A stretch of DNA of 64,000 bases from contig NKXK01000029.1 in assembly GCA_004379165.1 (NCBI GenBank), positions 186,001 through 250,000 of the forward strand, written 5' to 3'. Positions within the stretch are counted from its first letter, which is position 1. Each line of letters starts with the position of its first letter. Below are positions 7,479 through 54,436 of this stretch, piece by piece. The translations under genes were made by a program, and so were the position numbers. The notes beneath the pieces are model-generated. The model was given only the letters and a program-made list of their open reading frames with translations, was not told the origin of the DNA and did not search any database. This stretch comes from Rhodocyclaceae bacterium (lineage in GTDB: Bacteria > Pseudomonadota > Gammaproteobacteria > Burkholderiales > Rhodocyclaceae).

Positions 7479-9104
7479 ATGGTGTCATCTGCCGAGCCGA
7501 AATCGAATCAAGTCGCAACCGCCGGGATGCCCACCTTGGAGCGGATGTTCGACTGCGTGCTTCGCACGGATCTGGCGGGCGAGATTGCCTACGTATCGCC
7601 GCGCGGCCGCGACTGGCTCGAAAAAATAAGCCGGACATCCATGCCCGACAATCTCTGCCAGCTATTCCAGTTGGCCGATCAGGGACGTATCGCCGCCCAG
7701 CTGCACTCCGAGGAAGAACGTTCGCTTGGCACCTTGCAGTCTGCCGACGGGGCGGACGTGCCGGTGGCCATGCGGCGCATGAAGTTGATCGATGGCAAGC
7801 AGTTCCTGTTCTGCTTGCTCGAAACGCCGGGGCCAGGGCTGGCCGGGGGGGGCAGTCATCGCGATGACCTGACCGCGCTGCCCACCCGTCCGGCGATTGT
7901 GCTGGAAATCGATCGGCGCCTGGGGCGTTCAGAGACTTTCTGGTTTGCGCTGTTCAATATCGACAAATTCCGCCTGATCAACGAGAGTTTTGGCGTGGCG
8001 GTTGCCGATGCGCTGCTGGTGGAAGCGGCAAAGCGCCTGAAGGCGATCATGCCGGCGGATACCTGGCTCGGCCGGCTGGGGGCCGACGAATTCGCGTGCC
8101 TGTGGGGCGGATCGGAAGCTGAACTGCAGCAGCATCTCGATGAGGTCCTGCTGGAATTCGCCCGTCCCTTCGTCATCGACGGCAAGCGCTTGTACATGTG
8201 CGCAACGATCGGCGTGTCGTCCAGCACCGATGGCCAATCGCCTGGTGCCGGCAGCCTCCTGGCCAATGCTGACACGGCGCTGATCGCGGCCAAGGCTAGT
8301 GGCGGAAGTTGCTGGAAACGCTATGCCGAGCGACGGGCCGGACTGGATTACTCCCTCGTTTCCGCCATCTACAACGGCATCGAAAACGGTGAGTTTTTCC
8401 TCGTCTATCAACCGCAGTTTGGCATCGATGGCCGCTTGTACGGCGCCGAGGCGCTGATGCGCTGGAGTAGCTACGACCGGGGCTTCGTGTCGCCGGGACA
8501 GTTCATTCCAGTGGCAGAGCAATTTGGAATTATCTCCTTCCTCGGGCGCTGGGCTTTGCGCGTGGCCTGCCATCATCTGAAGCAGATCCTGCCCTCGCAT
8601 CCCGGTTTCCTGATGTCGGTCAATGTTGCTGCTTCCCAGTTTGGCGCGCCTGACTTTGCCGATCAGGTCATGGCCGCAGTTCAGGAGGCGGATGTGCCGC
8701 CGAGTTCGCTGGTGCTGGAAATTACCGAGTCCACCCTGATGCACAATTCGGAGCGGACCGAGGCGGCGCTCGCGAGCCTGCGTGCAGCCGGGATTCGCTT
8801 CTCGATCGACGATTTCGGAACCGGTTTCTCCAGCCTGGCCTATCTGACCCGTTTCCCGGTCTATGCGATCAAGATCGACAAGAGCTTCATCGATCCCGTA
8901 GGAAGTGGCGAAGCCGCGCCGGATCGGCTGGTTCAGGCGATGATCAACCTCGCCCACAGCATCGATCTGAAGGTCGTGGCCGAAGGGGTGGAGACCGAGA
9001 CGCAGCGCCAATTCCTGGCGCTGTCCCATTGCGACATCCTGCAAGGCTATTTGACCGGACGACCGATAGCGTTTGACCAACTGCTCAATTTGGATGTGCG
9101 ATGA
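7479..9104 (+). CDS. soluble PAS-GGDEF-EAL protein, likely c-di-GMP phosphodiesterase
   Basis: About 541 residues from ATG 7479; the frame is open back to GTG 7437, no ribosome site decides the start, and ATG 7527 is also possible. A PAS-like region (TLERMFDCVLRTDLAGEIAYVS) is followed by a GGDEF domain whose signature is RLGADEF. The GGDEF to GADEF change makes cyclase activity doubtful. The EAL domain keeps EALMRW, EITEST, DDFGTGFSS, KIDKSFI, AEGVE and QGYLTG, so phosphodiesterase activity is likely. There is no membrane segment. The stop overlaps the start of the next gene (ATGA), so it is probably coupled to the HDOD protein. Confidence 0.8.
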   Translation: MVSSAEPKSNQVATAGMPTLERMFDCVLRTDLAGEIAYVSPRGRDWLEKISRTSMPDNLCQLFQLADQGRIAAQLHSEEERSLGTLQSADGADVPVAMRRMKLIDGKQFLFCLLETPGPGLAGGGSHRDDLTALPTRPAIVLEIDRRLGRSETFWFALFNIDKFRLINESFGVAVADALLVEAAKRLKAIMPADTWLGRLGADEFACLWGGSEAELQQHLDEVLLEFARPFVIDGKRLYMCATIGVSSSTDGQSPGAGSLLANADTALIAAKASGGSCWKRYAERRAGLDYSLVSAIYNGIENGEFFLVYQPQFGIDGRLYGAEALMRWSSYDRGFVSPGQFIPVAEQFGIISFLGRWALRVACHHLKQILPSHPGFLMSVNVAASQFGAPDFADQVMAAVQEADVPPSSLVLEITESTLMHNSERTEAALASLRAAGIRFSIDDFGTGFSSLAYLTRFPVYAIKIDKSFIDPVGSGEAAPDRLVQAMINLAHSIDLKVVAEGVETETQRQFLALSHCDILQGYLTGRPIAFDQLLNLDVR

Positions 9105-10363
9105 CCGAAACCGATGTGACTCAGTTGTTGTTCGAGCGGATGCAAAAGCAGCCGGCGCTGGCCTCGCTTGAAAGCAATGTCTCCTCAATGATCAGCCAGT
9201 TGCGCGACCCGACCAAGGGCACGCGCGAACTGGTTAACCCGCTGCTGAGCGATGTCGCCCTCAGTCAGCGCGTTTTGCGCCTTGCCAATTCGCCGATGTA
9301 TTCGGCGATGAGCCAGGGGGTGAAGTCGATGACCTCCGCCGTCTCCATCCTCGGTTCGGAGGTGCTCTTGCACCTCGTGTTGAGCGCTACCGTCATGTCG
9401 GCGGCCGATCTGGAAGATGACGACGCCCTGATGGCCAATGTCCTCGCCGGGGAAGTGGCACGCAAGGCGGCTGTCCGGAATCACGAAGATGTATGCATTG
9501 CAGTGCTGCTCTATGACCTGGGCGTGATCATGGCCAGCTCCTATTTGCCGGACCATCTGGCGGCCTGCCGCCTTGCCATCGCAGGTGGGACGCCGCCGGA
9601 AGAGGCCGAGCGCCAGACCTTTGGCATGACGTTGCGGGAACTGGGCGGTCGGGTGGCTGCGCGCTGGCGCCTGCCCAGGGAAATCGTTTCGGTCATCGAT
9701 GGCAGCGGCGATCCGGAACTCGTTGGCATGGCCCGGGCATCGCATGAGATCGCTAATGGGCTGTTGGCAGGCGAGGGCAAGCTCGAACAGTTGCTCAGCC
9801 GGCTGCCGGCTTCATGCGCGCAACGGATTCCGACCATCCTGGCTGAGCTTGAGCCACGCCTTGACGTGTTCCGCCATCGCTTCGGGCAGGCTGCGCCGGC
9901 CTCGCCCGAGGACGCGGAAGTGTCCTCCTGGGAGTCACCAGAGGCGATTCCGGAAAGTGCCTTGCGGAATTTCCTAGACAAACATGGTGCCGCCCGCATC
10001 CTCATCTTCCGCCTGCGGGAAAATCGCTTCGAGGTATGTGCCGGGGCGGGAGAGAGTTATCCGAAATTGCGCCAGAAACTCCATGTCGATCTGGCGGGCG
10101 CGCCAACGGCATTTCACCTGGCTCATCGATCGAATAGCGAAGTCTTTATCGAGGATCTTGCCAAGTCGGCGACCAATGTCCTTCCTCCGGGATTCTGGCA
10201 GCTCTTGTCCAGCACCTGTTCGCTGGTGGTGCTGCCCATCAAGAAAGGCAGCGCTGCCGGCTTGGTGTATTGCGACTGGGAGTCGAAGCATCAAAGTTCC
10301 CTTGGGCTCCTTGCGGCACTGCGCTTATTCCGGAATTCGGTCGCACAGGCTTTCAAGCACTGA
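9101..10363 (+). CDS. HDOD-domain signalling protein with C-terminal GAF-like region
   Basis: This 420-residue protein has an HDOD domain in about residues 20-220 (PLLSDVALSQRVLRLANSP, then AVSILGSEVLLHLVL). HDOD is a non-catalytic relative of HD-GYP, so it probably acts as a protein-interaction or regulatory module. The last 130 residues look GAF-like (ARILIFRLRENRFEVCAGAG and later CSLVVLPIKKGSAAGLVYCDWE). It overlaps the upstream EAL gene by 4 bp and probably works with it. No transmembrane helix is visible. Confidence 0.8.
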   Translation: MTETDVTQLLFERMQKQPALASLESNVSSMISQLRDPTKGTRELVNPLLSDVALSQRVLRLANSPMYSAMSQGVKSMTSAVSILGSEVLLHLVLSATVMSAADLEDDDALMANVLAGEVARKAAVRNHEDVCIAVLLYDLGVIMASSYLPDHLAACRLAIAGGTPPEEAERQTFGMTLRELGGRVAARWRLPREIVSVIDGSGDPELVGMARASHEIANGLLAGEGKLEQLLSRLPASCAQRIPTILAELEPRLDVFRHRFGQAAPASPEDAEVSSWESPEAIPESALRNFLDKHGAARILIFRLRENRFEVCAGAGESYPKLRQKLHVDLAGAPTAFHLAHRSNSEVFIEDLAKSATNVLPPGFWQLLSSTCSLVVLPIKKGSAAGLVYCDWESKHQSSLGLLAALRLFRNSVAQAFKH

Positions 10364-49196: not shown

Positions 49197-49308
49197 GCGC
49201 GACAGAACGCGAGCGTCTTGCGGTCGGCACGGGATTACGGCCGGTGCTAATTGTCGCCGGTGATGCACCCTTGTTGTTCGGATTGTTTTTTGTGCGGAGT
49301 TTTGCACC

Positions 49309-49611
49309 ATGAATATCCTTGAAAAATTGCTGCCTCTCGTTTTTGGCCAGTTTTTGCTGTTCACCGCAGCAGTAGCCCAGACGGCTGAAGTCGCCGGTTT
49401 GCGTCCTGATCAGCGCCCTGCCGGGGCGCCGGTGATCGAGCGTTTCGAGCCGGATGCCGCGTGGCAGGCGCTCAAGGGCATTGCCGAGCCACAGACCGGG
49501 GTGGGTTTTCTGAAGGATCAGGGGGCGTGGTACACGCCGTTCAACCGCCCGAACATGCCCGGCCGTTACGATATCCGGCATCTCCACGAACAAAACAAGC
49601 CGAAAGAATGA
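49309..49611 (+). CDS. small exported protein of unknown family, first gene of the molybdenum-enzyme operon
   Basis: 100 residues. A signal peptide covers about residues 1-23 (FGQFLLFTAAVAQT). The mature 75-residue part has no Cys, no heme motif and no clear repeat; it ends with an aromatic, Pro-rich stretch (GAWYTPFNRPNMPGRYDIRHLH). I know no family for it. Its stop overlaps the start of the pentaheme gene (ATGA), so it is probably a dedicated periplasmic subunit or assembly factor. The 112-bp gap upstream (49197-49308) must hold the promoter; I saw no clean FNR or sigma-54 box. Confidence 0.8.
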   Translation: MNILEKLLPLVFGQFLLFTAAVAQTAEVAGLRPDQRPAGAPVIERFEPDAAWQALKGIAEPQTGVGFLKDQGAWYTPFNRPNMPGRYDIRHLHEQNKPKE

Positions 49612-50471
49612 CCATGGAAAGCCCGAAAACCGGCATTCTGATTCTCGCCGTGGTGGCCGTTGCAGCGGCGGCCGGCGGCCTTCTTGGCTGGCAGATCCGC
49701 CAGCAGCCGCAGACAGTGCCTGCCGCCGTTGGCTACGGCAAACCTGCGGGGCAGGACCACCTGCGTGCGACCTACGACCCCATCCACTTCAAGCCTGCGA
49801 TCGATACAGCGACCGATGCCCAGTGTCTCGCCTGCCACCGCGAAGTGCTCGACGACAAGGTTCGTGAGCGCTCGCCGGCGGGGATCAGTGCCGCCGCCAG
49901 CAAGGCTTGGTATCAGGAGGTGAGTACCTACGCCGGCGAACAGGATACTTTCCACCGCCGTCATCTGGTGACGCCGATGGCCAAGGAGCTGATGAACCTG
50001 CGCTGTACGACCTGCCACCAGGGCAACGATCCGCGCGAGGAAGCGCCGGGCTCGTCGGCGACGGCGATGCCGCAATCGACCGATGCCTTCACGCTGCGCA
50101 AGCAGGTCAATCCCGAAACCACCTGCCTTAAGTGCCACGGCCAGATGAATATCGAGGTAATGGGCCTGCCGTCTCCCTGGCGCGAGAGCAAGGATATGTT
50201 TGGTAACAGCTGCCTGACTTGTCATGCAGCGATCCGTACCCAGCGCCATCAGGTCAATTACCTCAAGACGGAAGCGATTGAGGCTGCCGGTGCCAAGAAC
50301 GCCGACACCTGCTACGGCTGTCATGGCGGCCGCTCGTGGTACCGCATCGTCTACCCCTATCCGCGTCACGCCTGGGATGGCATGGCACCTGAAGTTCCCG
50401 ACTGGGCCAAGGATCGCCCGACCGAGAGCGAAGCACGGTTTCGCATGACAGCTACGGTCAACCCGAAATAA
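49608..50471 (+). CDS. membrane-anchored pentaheme cytochrome c
   Basis: 287 residues. One N-terminal hydrophobic anchor (about 9-27) is followed by a periplasmic domain with five CxxCH sites: CLACH (73), CTTCH (133), CLKCH (173), CLTCH (202) and CYGCH (235). Several other His residues could be distal ligands. Spacing is unlike NapC/NirT or TorC, whose first hemes lie just after the anchor, so this is a different class. It probably carries electrons between the quinone pool or other cytochromes and the molybdenum enzyme. It overlaps the upstream gene and is 11 bp before the next. Confidence 0.88.
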   Translation: MTMESPKTGILILAVVAVAAAAGGLLGWQIRQQPQTVPAAVGYGKPAGQDHLRATYDPIHFKPAIDTATDAQCLACHREVLDDKVRERSPAGISAAASKAWYQEVSTYAGEQDTFHRRHLVTPMAKELMNLRCTTCHQGNDPREEAPGSSATAMPQSTDAFTLRKQVNPETTCLKCHGQMNIEVMGLPSPWRESKDMFGNSCLTCHAAIRTQRHQVNYLKTEAIEAAGAKNADTCYGCHGGRSWYRIVYPYPRHAWDGMAPEVPDWAKDRPTESEARFRMTATVNPK

Positions 50472-50482
50472 AGGCAAAAATC

Positions 50483-53056
50483 ATGGACCGGAAACGTAAC
50501 TGGCTGGACCTCCTCAATCCCAATCGGCGCAGCTTTTTGAAGACCGTTGGCGCCGGAACGGCCGTCGTCACCACCAGCGGCCTTATCGAACTCGGCAGCG
50601 GCGAGCAGGAGGCCAAGGCTTTCGCCTATGAACCCTATCCGCGTGATGATCAGCTGACGACGGTCGTCACTTCCTGCGACCATAACTGCGGTTCACGCCA
50701 CATGTTGGTGGCGCACAAGAAGGGCGACGTCATCGTCCGTCTGTCGACCGACGACGGGCGGTATCAAGAGGGCGGCAAGTTCGGCTTCGAGACCGAACAG
50801 GTACCCCAACTGCGCGCCTGCCTCCGGGGGCGTTCCTACCGTAGCCGCCTCTACTCACCCGAACGTCTGCTCTACCCGATGATGCGCGTTGGTGAGCGCG
50901 GCGAGGGCAAGTTCAAGCGCGTGTCGTGGGATGAAGCGCTCGACCATGTCGCCAGGAAAATGGTCGAGCTGAAACACAAGTACGGGCCGACGGCGATCCT
51001 CGATCAAGCCTACGCCGGGACTTCCTACGGCGTGCTGCACAAGTCCGATCAGATCGAAGGCCTGCTCGCCCGCTTCCTCGGCATGTTCGGCTGCCGCACC
51101 AATTCGTGGTCTGTCCCCAGTTATCAGGGCACGACCTTCAGCTCGCGGACGACCTTCGGCACCATCACTGATGGCAACGAGGATGATGCCTTTGCGCATT
51201 CCAAGCTGATCATCATGTGGGGCTGGAATCCGGCCTACACCTTCCACGGCGGCAATACCTTCTACTACATGCGGCTGGCCAAGCAGCGCGGCTGCAAATT
51301 CGTGGTGGTCGATCCGCAATACACCGACTCGGCGGCCAGTTACGACGCCTGGTGGATTCCGATCAAGCCCAATACCGATGCCGCGATGCTCGCCGGCATG
51401 GCCCACCACATTTTCGTCAATAACTGGCAGGACCAGAAATTCATCGACAAGTTCTGCCAGGGCATGGATGCTGGCACGACGCCCAAGGAGTTCGCCGACA
51501 AGGAGAACTTCAAGGATTACATTCTGGGGAAATACGACAACACGCCGAAGACCCCGGAATGGGCGGAGAAAATCTGCGGCGTGCCGGCAGCCGACATCAA
51601 GAAGCTGGCCGAAATGTATGCCACCACCAAGCCGGCCGCCCTGAAAGCCAGCTGGGCGCCTGGGCGGGCCAGCTATGGCGAGCAGTACAACCGGATGGCT
51701 GCTGCCGTGCAGGCGATGACCGGCAACATCGGCATCCTTGGCGGTTGCGCCGAAGGGGTCGGCAAGGGCTGGCATGCCGAATCGGTGGCCTATCCCTATG
51801 ACGAATATGCCAACGTCTGGTGGGCCTCGCTGAAGTCCGACCGCTGGGCGCATTGCGTGCTCAACTACCCGAACGTCAAGCGTGAGGAAATCGGCTGCTG
51901 GCCACGCAATGACGAGCTGGATGGCAGTATTCCGAACATCAAGGCGATCTTCTGGCACGGCTCGGACTGGTTCAACCAGCTGACCAACATCAACAAGGAA
52001 ATTGCCGCGATCAAGAAGCTGGAGCTGGTCGTCTGCATGGATTCGACGATCACGCCTTCGGGCCTGTGGGCCGATGTGCTGTTCCCGATCGCCACGCACT
52101 TCGAGCGCCATGATGTTGCCTTGCCTTGGTATAAGGGGCATTACTACATCCACCGCCCGAAGGTCATCGAGCCGCTCGGCGAATCGAAGACCGACCTGCA
52201 GGTGTTCACTGAGCTGGCCTATCGCATCGAAAAGATCGATCCGAGCGTCAAGGACTTCGGCAAGCGCTACAACCCGAAGGCGCAGCGTGATTACTTCCAG
52301 AACAACGAAGTCACCGACGAAGCCTATCTCACCGACTGGTGGCAGAACAAGGTGCAGGCCCACCAGGGCGTCAAGATGTCGTGGGAGGACTTCAAGAAAC
52401 ACGGCGTCTACAAGTTCGTCTTCGACAAGCCGCATGTCGCTTTCGAGGAGCAGATCAGCAAGGGCGTGCCTTTCCCCACACCATCGGGCAAGATCGAAAT
52501 CCTGTCGACGACGCTGGCCAACATCAAGGACTGGACCAGGACGCAGTACGGCTACGAGATTCCCTATCTGCCGAAGTGGATCGAGCCTTTCGAATCGCTG
52601 AACCATCCGAAGGCGAAGAAATTCCCCTTCCACATGGTCACGCCGCACCCGCGCTGGCGGACGCACTCGATCTTCCACAACATCCCGTGGTTGCGTGAGA
52701 CCTACCAGCAGGAAATGACCATCAGCGCCCGTGACGCCAAGGCGCGTGGGTTGGTCACCGGCGACATCGTCGAAGTCTGGAACGACCGTGGCAAGTGCGT
52801 CGTGCCCGTCTATGTCACCGAGCGCTGCATGCCCGGTGTCGTCGTGTTGTACGAAGGTGCCTGGATGGATCTGGCCAAGGATGGCAGCGACCGTTCTGGT
52901 AACCCGGACTTCCTGACGCTCGATGAGCCCAGCCCGGCGGGGGCCTTTGCCTACAACACCATCCTTGTCGACTTCAAGAAAACCGCCCTCGATCACCATC
53001 CGGGCTGGGATACCCAGGCGACCTCGCGCTCCGTCGTCTTCCGGAGGGACAAGTAA
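50483..53056 (+). CDS. DmsA-type molybdopterin oxidoreductase catalytic subunit, Tat-exported
   Basis: 857 residues. Twin-arginine signal NRRSFLKTVGAG (15-16 RR). The cluster-binding motif is Cys65-x3-Cys69-x3-His73, then Cys113 in RACLRGRS; E. coli DmsA has Cys at the third site. A Ser in the VPSYQGTTFSS region is in place of DmsA's molybdenum-ligand Ser by my alignment. RVSWDEALDHVA, WGWNPAYTFHGG and TPSGKIEI are general family marks, and the C-terminal domain is complete. So it is a periplasmic two-electron reductase or dehydrogenase. Neighbours suggest a sulfur or other oxyanion or S/N-oxide substrate, but none is shown. It overlaps the next gene by one base (TAATG). Confidence 0.9.
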   Translation: MDRKRNWLDLLNPNRRSFLKTVGAGTAVVTTSGLIELGSGEQEAKAFAYEPYPRDDQLTTVVTSCDHNCGSRHMLVAHKKGDVIVRLSTDDGRYQEGGKFGFETEQVPQLRACLRGRSYRSRLYSPERLLYPMMRVGERGEGKFKRVSWDEALDHVARKMVELKHKYGPTAILDQAYAGTSYGVLHKSDQIEGLLARFLGMFGCRTNSWSVPSYQGTTFSSRTTFGTITDGNEDDAFAHSKLIIMWGWNPAYTFHGGNTFYYMRLAKQRGCKFVVVDPQYTDSAASYDAWWIPIKPNTDAAMLAGMAHHIFVNNWQDQKFIDKFCQGMDAGTTPKEFADKENFKDYILGKYDNTPKTPEWAEKICGVPAADIKKLAEMYATTKPAALKASWAPGRASYGEQYNRMAAAVQAMTGNIGILGGCAEGVGKGWHAESVAYPYDEYANVWWASLKSDRWAHCVLNYPNVKREEIGCWPRNDELDGSIPNIKAIFWHGSDWFNQLTNINKEIAAIKKLELVVCMDSTITPSGLWADVLFPIATHFERHDVALPWYKGHYYIHRPKVIEPLGESKTDLQVFTELAYRIEKIDPSVKDFGKRYNPKAQRDYFQNNEVTDEAYLTDWWQNKVQAHQGVKMSWEDFKKHGVYKFVFDKPHVAFEEQISKGVPFPTPSGKIEILSTTLANIKDWTRTQYGYEIPYLPKWIEPFESLNHPKAKKFPFHMVTPHPRWRTHSIFHNIPWLRETYQQEMTISARDAKARGLVTGDIVEVWNDRGKCVVPVYVTERCMPGVVVLYEGAWMDLAKDGSDRSGNPDFLTLDEPSPAGAFAYNTILVDFKKTALDHHPGWDTQATSRSVVFRRDK

Positions 53057-53727
53057 TGGTCAGGAAAATCGACAAGCAGGAACTCAAATCGGCCATCGAG
53101 CGTAAGGTCGCGCAGACCTATGAGCCGGTCAAAACCGCCAAACAGTTGGGCTTCATCCATCACAACGTCGATTGCATCGGTTGCCGGGCCTGCGAAATTG
53201 CTTGCAAGGACAAGAACGGCCTGCCCCCCGGGCCGCGTTTCCGCCGTGTCATGTATGTCGAGGGCGGAACCTTTCCGGATGTCCATGCCTACAAGGTCAA
53301 CATGGCCTGCAATCATTGCGCCGAACCGGCCTGTCTGCCGACCTGCCCGACCGGCGCGATCTGGAAGCGTGCCGACAACGGCGTGGTCGATATCGACTCG
53401 ACGCTGTGCATCGGCTGTCGAAAATGCGAGGCAGCCTGCCCCTACGGCGCGCCGCAGTGGGATCCGCAGGAGCTGGTGATCAAGAAGTGCAACATGTGCA
53501 TCGACGAACTGGAGGCGGGTCGCAAGCCCTACTGCGTTCAGGCCTGCATGATGCGCGTGCTGGATATCGGCCCGATCGAGGAAATCTGGAAGGGAACGCT
53601 CAAGACCACCGCCATCGGCCCCAACGATGTGCCGGTCAAACAAGTGAAAAACATGGCCAATCCGGAGTTGACGAAGCCCTCGATAGCTTTCATTCCGCAC
53701 AGCAAGGGCCGCGTCGATGGCAAATAA
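53056..53727 (+). CDS. DmsB-type iron-sulfur electron-transfer subunit
   Basis: 223 residues. Four ferredoxin-like Cys groups are complete: CIGCRACEIAC, CNHCAEPACLPTC, CIGCRKCEAAC and the split CNMC...CVQAC, giving four [4Fe-4S] clusters as in DmsB, NarH or TtrB. There is no signal peptide, so it would be co-exported with the Tat-bearing catalytic subunit. The C-terminal tail is short. The pair A-B would then need a membrane partner, which here looks like the pentaheme rather than a DmsC. Confidence 0.93.
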   Translation: MVRKIDKQELKSAIERKVAQTYEPVKTAKQLGFIHHNVDCIGCRACEIACKDKNGLPPGPRFRRVMYVEGGTFPDVHAYKVNMACNHCAEPACLPTCPTGAIWKRADNGVVDIDSTLCIGCRKCEAACPYGAPQWDPQELVIKKCNMCIDELEAGRKPYCVQACMMRVLDIGPIEEIWKGTLKTTAIGPNDVPVKQVKNMANPELTKPSIAFIPHSKGRVDGK

Positions 53728-54436
53728 GCTTTTCGCGGCGCTGGCCGACGACCTGGCCCAGTTGATCCGTCTGCATGACCGCGAGATCGACGCCGATGTG
53801 CTGGTCGCCTTGCGCCAGGTCGATTTTCCGCATCAACTGGCGCTGCCGGCCAATGGCCCGGTGGCGCAGCAGGCCTGGGCCAATATGGCGGCGGCGTTGG
53901 CCGGGCCGCTGTCGCTTGACGATCTGGCGGCTGATTACGCTGCGATTTACCTGAACAACCAATACGCGTCGTCGCCCTATGAGTCGGTCTGGCTGACCGA
54001 CGACCACCTCGCCTGCGGGGCGCCGATGTTCGAATTGCGTGAAATCTACGCCGCTGCCGGCTGGCAGGCCGCTGACCGGCGGCAGCGTTTTGACGATCAT
54101 CTGGTCTTGCAGATGCAGTACCTGCAACGCCAGATGAGCTCGTCTGCGGTCGCCCCGGAAAACCTCGAAAATTTCCTCGATGACCATCTGGGCTGTTGGT
54201 TCCCGGACTTTGCCCGCCAGGTCTCGATGCGTGCCCGGACAGCCTTCTACGCGGCGCTCGTCGAACTTACTCATGTCTGGCTGGTACAGTACCGCCAGTT
54301 GCTGGCCGATGTCACCGGTCGTGCCATCCCGGATCGCGAAGAGATCGCTGCCCGCATCAACCGCAAACTGGCGCTCGACAAGGCGGAAGTGGCGCCGATC
54401 CGTTTCATGCCCGGACAGCATGGCCCGAGTTGGTAA
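53717..54436 (+). CDS. TorD-family chaperone for the molybdenum enzyme
   Basis: 239 residues, all-helical. The family marks are LAADYAAIYLNN, SPYESVWL and the EIYAAAGWQ loop with later DHLGCWFPDFARQV. TorD/DmsD-type chaperones bind the Tat signal and help insert the cofactor before export. It overlaps the ferredoxin gene by 11 bp and is the last of the operon, matching its dedicated role. Confidence 0.9.
   Translation: MANKLFAALADDLAQLIRLHDREIDADVLVALRQVDFPHQLALPANGPVAQQAWANMAAALAGPLSLDDLAADYAAIYLNNQYASSPYESVWLTDDHLACGAPMFELREIYAAAGWQAADRRQRFDDHLVLQMQYLQRQMSSSAVAPENLENFLDDHLGCWFPDFARQVSMRARTAFYAALVELTHVWLVQYRQLLADVTGRAIPDREEIAARINRKLALDKAEVAPIRFMPGQHGPSW

Follow-up and report, generated by a model that had tools for sequence, protein, structure and literature searches.

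A DmsA-like operon with a pentaheme cytochrome in a Rhodocyclaceae bacterium: a candidate reductase for methionine-rich exported proteins

What does an enzyme of the dimethyl sulfoxide (DMSO) reductase family act upon when its operon carries a pentaheme cytochrome instead of the DmsC membrane subunit? This question is raised by five genes at positions 49309–54436 of a 64,000-nucleotide stretch of the genome of a Rhodocyclaceae bacterium (assembly GCA_004379165.1, contig NKXK01000029.1, positions 186,001 to 250,000; hereafter, the window). According to our analysis, the catalytic subunit belongs to a separate clade of DmsA-like proteins, and in most relatives a gene for a methionine (Met)-rich exported protein lies upstream of the operon. 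Our preferred interpretation, held with slightly more belief than doubt, is that the operon encodes a periplasmic methionine sulfoxide (MetO) reductase, which would re-reduce a sacrificial Met-rich scavenger. An earlier reading made from the letters of the window (the sequence-only reading) had described five tightly spaced genes. All five are indeed open reading frames (ORFs) on the forward strand at the positions given below, Pfam and NCBIfam concur, and the first three genes are separated by 2 and 11 bp, while the last two junctions are overlaps of 1 bp and 11 bp.

49197..49308, no strand: site of the cassette loss (kinase, sigma-54 regulator and Met-rich gene in L030 and L036), from flank alignment
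49309..49611, forward: orphan, 100 amino acids (aa), with a signal-peptide-like start and the conserved motif GIxEPxxxxxFLxxQGAWYTPFxxP
49614..50471, forward: pentaheme cytochrome c, 285 aa, with five CxxCH motifs and an N-terminal hydrophobic anchor
50483..53056, forward: DmsA-like molybdopterin catalytic subunit, 857 aa, predicted to be exported by twin-arginine translocation (Tat), TIGR02166-related, separate clade
50675..50701, forward: FS0 iron-sulphur motif CDHNCGSRH, with His73 at the place of the third Cys of DmsA/YnfE
50819..50821, forward: C113, fourth FS0 ligand of the catalytic subunit
51023..51025, forward: Ser181, candidate Mo ligand, Ser in all 82 clade sequences
53056..53727, forward: DmsB-like ferredoxin subunit with 16 Cys for four [4Fe-4S] clusters (TIGR02951, Cys conservation)
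53717..54436, forward: TorD/DmsD-type maturation chaperone (PF02613, 69.3 bits)

All five genes are intact, and the comparison with the close relative Dechloromonas sp. CZR5 (L030) shows that the operon is under purifying selection: the ratios of nonsynonymous to synonymous substitution rates (dN/dS), which are rough because dS is high (0.67–1.5), were 0.055 for the catalytic subunit, 0.049 for the ferredoxin, 0.155 for the cytochrome, 0.162 for the orphan and 0.201 for the chaperone. The ferredoxin matched Fer4_11 and, under the cut-off of 214.1, the DmsB model TIGR02951 (190.0 bits); its 16 Cys are kept in 79–80 of 80 sequences. The chaperone matched PF02613 (Nitrate_red_del/TorD) and reached 71.7 bits with PRK04976 (TorD), below the cut-off of 132. 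The orphan had no match in Pfam or NCBIfam; its homologues lie immediately 5' of the cytochrome gene in related loci (cluster 12, eight loci), and a GAWYxPF-type motif was found upstream in 18 of the 60 loci having at least 2 kb of upstream sequence. It is putatively a small accessory protein.

The relatives were collected from 297 candidate contig stretches, 293 of which were confirmed by tblastn; the best 80 (76–94% identity) were kept, and a conjugative plasmid of Rhodobacter xanthinilyticus (74%) was added. Judged by sequence comparison, the catalytic subunit forms a compact clade of its own outside DmsA/YnfE, with 74–94% identity over beta-, gamma- and alphaproteobacteria and 33–37% to DmsA/YnfE (33–36% for the catalytic subunits of the Escherichia coli DmsABC and YnfEFGH systems). 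It matched the Pfam Molybdopterin family (PF00384) with 164.5 bits, and fell short of the cut-offs of both the DmsA/YnfE model TIGR02166 (605.9 bits against 777.7) and the type II model TIGR03479, which covers Pcr, Clr, Ser and Ddh (228.8 bits against 984.75); the PhsA, ArrA and TtrA models gave 205.8, 80.6 and 59.9 bits. The Pfam TAT_signal match (19.1 bits) is under its cut-off of 22.7, and R15 and R16 are invariant across 34 aligned clade sequences. In the tree, which comprised 17 clade members, 19 DmsA/YnfE-like proteins and TorA (references: DmsA, YnfE, YnfF, TorA, one alphaproteobacterial DmsA and 15 further hits; L096 and L221, a mis-called ORF with a branch length of 10, were left out), a branch with 100/100 support separates the clade from all other sequences. 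The clade did not fall inside a characterised one with this five-gene layout; TtrA, PsrA/PhsA, SerA and ArrA were set apart by the family-model scores alone, outside the tree. In a phylum sample of 398 genomes, the enzyme was found in the window genome and four others (75–79%), the next-best full-length matches having 37% identity and one partial match 43% (G248, 371 residues). Searches of openly licensed papers returned no description of the clade or of the Met-repeat protein.

The clade is further marked at its FS0 site. The motif CxxxCGSRH...C, with His73 in the third position, is present in 82/82 clade sequences. In DmsA, YnfE and YnfF of E. coli this position is Cys, as it is in 23 of the 25 distant hits. 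The two exceptions are L206, which carries CGGKCDIRA like the Rhodovastum DmsA, so that the criterion of a third Cys is not absolute, and the mis-called L221, which has no motif. Ser181, a candidate Mo ligand by analogy with the Ser of DmsA, is equally invariant. Among the clade members, L096 lies on a contig labelled Clostridia and groups with Sedimenticola/Thiodiazotropha sequences, so the contig is probably mis-binned. On the 264-kb plasmid pEJ01 of R. xanthinilyticus (L028, NZ_CP017782.1), the whole cluster, including a two-component system and a Met-rich protein with 68 Met in 244 aa, is located near insertion sequence elements, and this plasmid location indicates horizontal spread to the Alphaproteobacteria. 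Elsewhere in the window genome, a PF00384 match with one in-frame TGA (L005, G000:C2:93757-95205) is perhaps a selenocysteine formate dehydrogenase. The structure model of the catalytic subunit was too poor for use (mean predicted local distance difference test score, pLDDT, 55.6).

How electrons would reach this enzyme is the next question, and here the sequence-only reading, which saw no DmsC-type membrane subunit, is supported: PF04976 was not found in eight of the nine operon-bearing genomes searched, including the window genome (95% complete). Its statement that the heme spacing is not NapC-like also stands, with spacings of 60/40/29/33 in the cytochrome, where the NapC encoded in the window genome has 30/60/32 and TorC of E. 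coli has 29/61/32/159, although a partial PF03264 (NapC/NirT) match of 29.8 bits exceeds the cut-off of 24.1; the true NapC scores 255.1 bits. Besides the heme motifs, H58, H114, H117, H212, M127 and M183 are invariant in 51 aligned sequences. The predicted structure has an N-terminal helix (residues 4–29; pLDDT 83–95 over residues 1–30), beyond which the model was too poor for use (mean pLDDT 66.3); a fold search with it gave no matches, and when solved structures were searched by profile with the cytochrome sequence, UndA alone was returned (E 0.00086). The sole NapC found in the window genome is about 65 kb from the operon, adjoining what we take by look to be a nap-like cluster of NapA-like, ferredoxin-type, integral ferredoxin and diheme ORFs. 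The sole NrfD found (G000:C41:76104-76979) lies about 1 kb from a weakly matching molybdopterin-family ORF (G000:C41:77942). We therefore propose the anchored pentaheme cytochrome as the putative electron donor to the ferredoxin subunit; since electrons would reach the enzyme through these two proteins, a DmsC/NrfD anchor would be dispensable. In the alphaproteobacterial-type loci L028 (10487–11959) and L236 (about 7928–10084, by look), the pentaheme cytochrome carries a fused class I cytochrome c domain at its N terminus.

The sequence-only reading had also proposed that the five proteins be searched together as a conserved cluster. In 82 loci (the window and L028–L108, with ORFs called by codon-usage scoring), the gene set does recur, but an additional partner that is invisible in the window emerges upstream in most relatives. 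The recurrent order is Met-rich exported protein, in part the orphan, cytochrome, molybdoenzyme, ferredoxin and chaperone, with, usually, a kinase and a sigma-54 regulator on one or the other side. Of the 60 loci whose upstream sequence extends for 2 kb or more, 42 have a Met-rich ORF, defined by at least four GMxGM motifs, on the same strand and no more than 3 kb before the cytochrome (59/81 when all loci are counted), whereas the control scans gave 0/292 (opposite strand, 0/60; downstream, 0/66 per strand; 3–6 kb upstream, 0/50 per strand). The Met-rich gene is thus linked to the enzyme. In the phylum sample, 4/4 other clade members had such a gene upstream of a five- or six-heme cytochrome, one copy being interrupted by a run of N and one cut by the contig end. 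The 44 copies with a plausible start consist largely of GMSGM-type repeats and have 67–393 aa (median 181.5), 13–96 Met (median 40) and a mature Met content of 10.9–30.1% (median 24.1); 31 of them are free of Cys. By eye, the products begin with signal-peptide-like sequences. In some Met-rich proteins, as in L234, L236 and L028, the repeat blocks are separated by short Cys motifs resembling W(V/A)CTQW.

Why, then, is this component missing from the window? L030 and L036 share its flanks, with ORFs named by look as STAS-like and sulfurtransferase upstream. The interval from the sulfurtransferase to the orphan, measured between aligned ends, is 188 bp in the window where L030 has 4,043 bp, and 242 bp in the alignment with L036, which has 4,049 bp; in both relatives it holds the kinase, the regulator and the Met-rich gene. 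The Met-rich component is therefore missing because the lineage of the window lost a cassette of about 3.9 kb. The kinase orthologue, which has 75–81% identity in genomes G083 and G091, was not found in four genomes, those of the window and of L037 together with G011 and G015; the matches listed for them are kinases of about 27–34% identity, the best in the window genome having about 30%. The kinase and the Met-rich gene vary together: in 42 loci with long flanks, both are present in 26, both absent in 10 and discordant in six (five and one). On the enzyme tree, this pattern is suggestive only. The scanned kinase copy has HAMP and PAS domains, and CxxCH occurs in 38 of 42 members of the kinase cluster, which may include a few unrelated kinases; the scanned regulator is a sigma-54 activator. 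Sites of the -24/-12 type scoring at least 13 precede 14 of the 44 Met-rich genes, mostly in Rhodocyclales (1.1% in shuffles). The best candidate before the window operon (score 12.0) lies within the sulfurtransferase gene and is unconvincing.

Within the genus, the enzyme was found in 20/60 genomes. The strict repeat pattern was present in 16/60, of which 15 have the enzyme and the sixteenth (G087) a single stray match; a variant repeat in G085 was missed by this pattern. Counted as a local gene, the Met-rich protein is encoded in 16 of the 20 genomes with the enzyme, against the one stray match in the 40 without it (Fisher p 5e-10, relatedness ignored). The enzyme genomes without the local gene are the window genome, G011, G015 and G009, whose contig ends there. 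At a distance of 52 kb on the contig of the operon, the window genome encodes a lipoprotein with GMAGM/GMSGM repeats (11 Met in 91 aa). Relatives of this lipoprotein at E<1e-12, a limit chosen after viewing the scores (next best, 2e-10), occur unlinked in 14/60 genomes of the genus; the enzyme is present in 13 of these (p 1.8e-7, relatedness ignored), the fourteenth being G023 (74% complete); at E 0.01, 55/60 genomes match somehow, many by short N-terminal or low-complexity segments. At the stricter limit, the lipoprotein is present in all four enzyme genomes without the local gene and has no match in the enzyme genomes G004, G014, G033, G035, G079, G085 and G093. It was also found, with 13–15 Met, in the genomes of L038, L044 and L048, all without a local Met-rich gene. 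Distinctive C-terminal tails were also observed: ORFs resembling ABC-type binding proteins with a GMGGM/GMSGM Met-rich C-terminal tail (L170, 2565–3926, and L173, 2195–2785, both on the reverse strand) occur in the genomes of L042 and L086, which have no local Met-rich gene, and in the window genome an ORF ending in a GMSGMAGMDGMAGM tail (L131, G000:C41:86954-88201) directly precedes a 1023-aa pump-like ORF.

From these data we propose the following scheme. Oxidants of the cell envelope would oxidize the methionines of the Met-rich protein, and the molybdenum subunit would re-reduce the protein-bound sulfoxides. The electrons for this step would be supplied by the respiratory chain and travel by way of the anchored pentaheme cytochrome, the ferredoxin and FS0 to Mo. 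In most relatives examined, the dedicated substrate would be the secreted Met-repeat protein; in the window genome, the remaining candidate is the unlinked, moderately Met-rich lipoprotein. The sensor kinase with its c-type heme motif and the sigma-54 regulator may activate the scavenger gene, and the operon as well at loci where the two are linked. The sequence-only reading had suggested an undescribed periplasmic respiratory complex, and this is partly supported: the enzyme forms its own clade outside DmsA/YnfE, and no DmsC partner was found. Because the Met-rich exported protein is the most telling component of the system, however, repair of protein-bound MetO, with or without energy conservation, is a better reading than generic respiration of a small oxidant.

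Such a mechanism is credible because of the literature on DorA, DmsA and MrpX/YedYZ. Rhodobacter DorA reduces protein-bound MetO; its kcat with beta-casein is about 1.6 per s, and when two peptides were compared it preferred the one in which Gly precedes MetO (PMC7402097). In extracts of two E. coli dmsA mutants, the methionine sulfoxide activity was reduced by 96% and 68%, and dmsA is induced by hypochlorous acid (PMC12096835). MrpX with YedYZ constitutes a periplasmic Met-cycling defence against hypochlorite (PMC4623255; PMC5748585), and chlorite dismutase neighbourhoods have also been reported with methionine sulfoxide reductase (Msr) systems (PMC9751292).

Several points weigh against MetO repair as the function. 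The assignment of the substrate draws on gene neighbourhood and enzyme family, and so stays presumptive. Like the window, 18 of the 60 loci are without a local Met-rich gene (L037–L040, L042, L044, L048–L050, L052, L056, L057, L063, L068, L070, L080, L086 and L087; L070 and L080 have a degenerate gene with two motifs). The lipoprotein is a weak stand-in: six copies with GMxGM motifs have 8–12 Met in 91–101 aa, far less than the repeat protein, and that of L040/G011, which also lacks a local Met-rich gene, has five Met and no GMxGM. The genus co-occurrence statistics take no account of relatedness, the tree-controlled comparison of kinase and Met-rich gene, which has five independent pairs, gave about four in the same direction and none opposite (p 0.125), and sigma-54 sites are weak or absent at the other 30 of the 44 Met-rich genes, including the Thiodiazotropha-type loci. 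The main physico-chemical doubt concerns the donor: the fusion in L028 and L236 suggests the high-potential cytochrome c pool, on which sulfoxide reductases do not usually draw. Finally, N-oxides may be the preferred or main substrates of DmsABC (PMC12096835).

A less probable, yet serious, explanation is that the enzyme respires a small S- or N-oxide or oxyanion (DMSO, trimethylamine N-oxide, chlorate, selenate, etc.). The Met-rich protein would then have only the accessory task of shielding against by-products and would depend on a different Msr for its repair, just as YedY repairs MrpX in (per)chlorate reducers; perchlorate islands place the oxyanion reductase and MrpX/YedYZ in one locus (PMC4623255). 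DmsA and YnfE are annotated as S-/N-oxide or selenate reductases. Feeding by a cytochrome also resembles that of Pcr. However, the enzyme is the only recognised conserved reductase beside the Met-rich gene in the 82 loci, where the neighbours were partly annotated and Msr genes were not searched, and its type II score is far below the TIGR03479 cut-off. It is improbable, in our view, that the repeat protein binds a soft metal (Cu(I), Ag(I)) or caps a mineral while the operon reduces a metalloid oxyanion: MxxM-type motifs do resemble known periplasmic copper-binding proteins and YnfE/YnfF are annotated as putative selenate reductases, but no copper gene was recognised by eye among the conserved neighbour clusters (no dedicated copper-gene search was made), and the absence of Cys from 31/44 complete copies neither favours nor excludes Cu(I) binding by Met. 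Equally improbable, in our view, is an enzyme that works oxidatively, so that the cytochrome c pool would receive electrons taken from a thioether or some other donor. The fused class I domain, together with a monoheme cytochrome c gene adjoining the operon in 11 loci (cluster 9), would fit such a direction, but a monoheme domain can equally feed a reductase, as in TorC, and the closest family members of known function are reductases. It is also improbable that the Met-rich protein is a rechargeable extracytoplasmic electron store or terminal acceptor, whose Met residues, up to about 96 per chain, are oxidized and re-reduced by a dedicated enzyme wired to the cytochrome c pool; protein-bound MetO would then itself be respired, or the reaction would run both ways, beyond repair.

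Among known systems, the proposed MetO reductase has its nearest functional counterpart in MrpX/YedYZ. YedY is also a molybdenum enzyme, but of the YedY family, whereas the operon enzyme is of the DMSO reductase family (PF00384). In Azospira suillum, too, a Met-rich periplasmic peptide is paired with a reductase, YedYZ (MsrPQ), that receives its electrons from respiration (PMC4623255; PMC5748585). This system uses YedZ, where the operon has the pentaheme cytochrome and ferredoxin, and is controlled by sigF/nrsF, whereas a kinase and a sigma-54 regulator are linked in the relatives (sigF/nrsF were not searched for). Unlike MrpX, the scavenger repeats of the clade reach 96 Met. An exported Met-rich protein tied to a reductase is thus found in the clade, and in the window genome only as the unlinked lipoprotein. 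In its proposed function the operon works like MrpX/YedYZ without belonging to that system, since the enzyme family, the electron path and the linked control genes are different.

With E. coli DmsABC/YnfEFGH, the operon shares the DmsB-like ferredoxin, the TorD/DmsD-type chaperone and a related catalytic subunit, and DmsABC acts on methionine sulfoxide too (PMC12096835). The differences are that DmsC was not found and a pentaheme takes its place, that His replaces the third FS0 Cys, and that the scores are under the family cut-offs; the operon is thus DmsA-like, yet it departs from DmsA in its model score, in its FS0 ligands and in having no DmsC, which that system requires. TorCAD and MtsZ, the latter a cytochrome-fed methionine sulfoxide reductase, resemble it as cytochrome-fed periplasmic S-/N-oxide reductases with a TorD chaperone, but TorA has no FS0 motif, torCAD has no ferredoxin gene and TorC has NapC-like heme spacing. 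PcrABCD of Rhodocyclaceae has a similar set of alpha and beta subunits, a multiheme cytochrome c and a chaperone, but is of the type II clade. DorA is monomeric and cluster-free. For the Rhodobacter sphaeroides enzyme, the available part of the report mentions no Met-rich partner (PMC7402097).

In conclusion, if our interpretation is correct, this would be, as far as our searches of openly licensed papers show, the first respiratory enzyme of the DMSO reductase family that is genetically dedicated to a protein substrate. It would provide a testable role for a clade of environmental and symbiotic proteobacteria whose nearest family model is that of a DMSO/selenate reductase, and the invariant change from Cys to His at FS0 offers a ready spectroscopic question. 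The Met-repeat genes, in turn, may serve to mark out oxidant defence among Rhodocyclales and sulphur-oxidizing symbionts.

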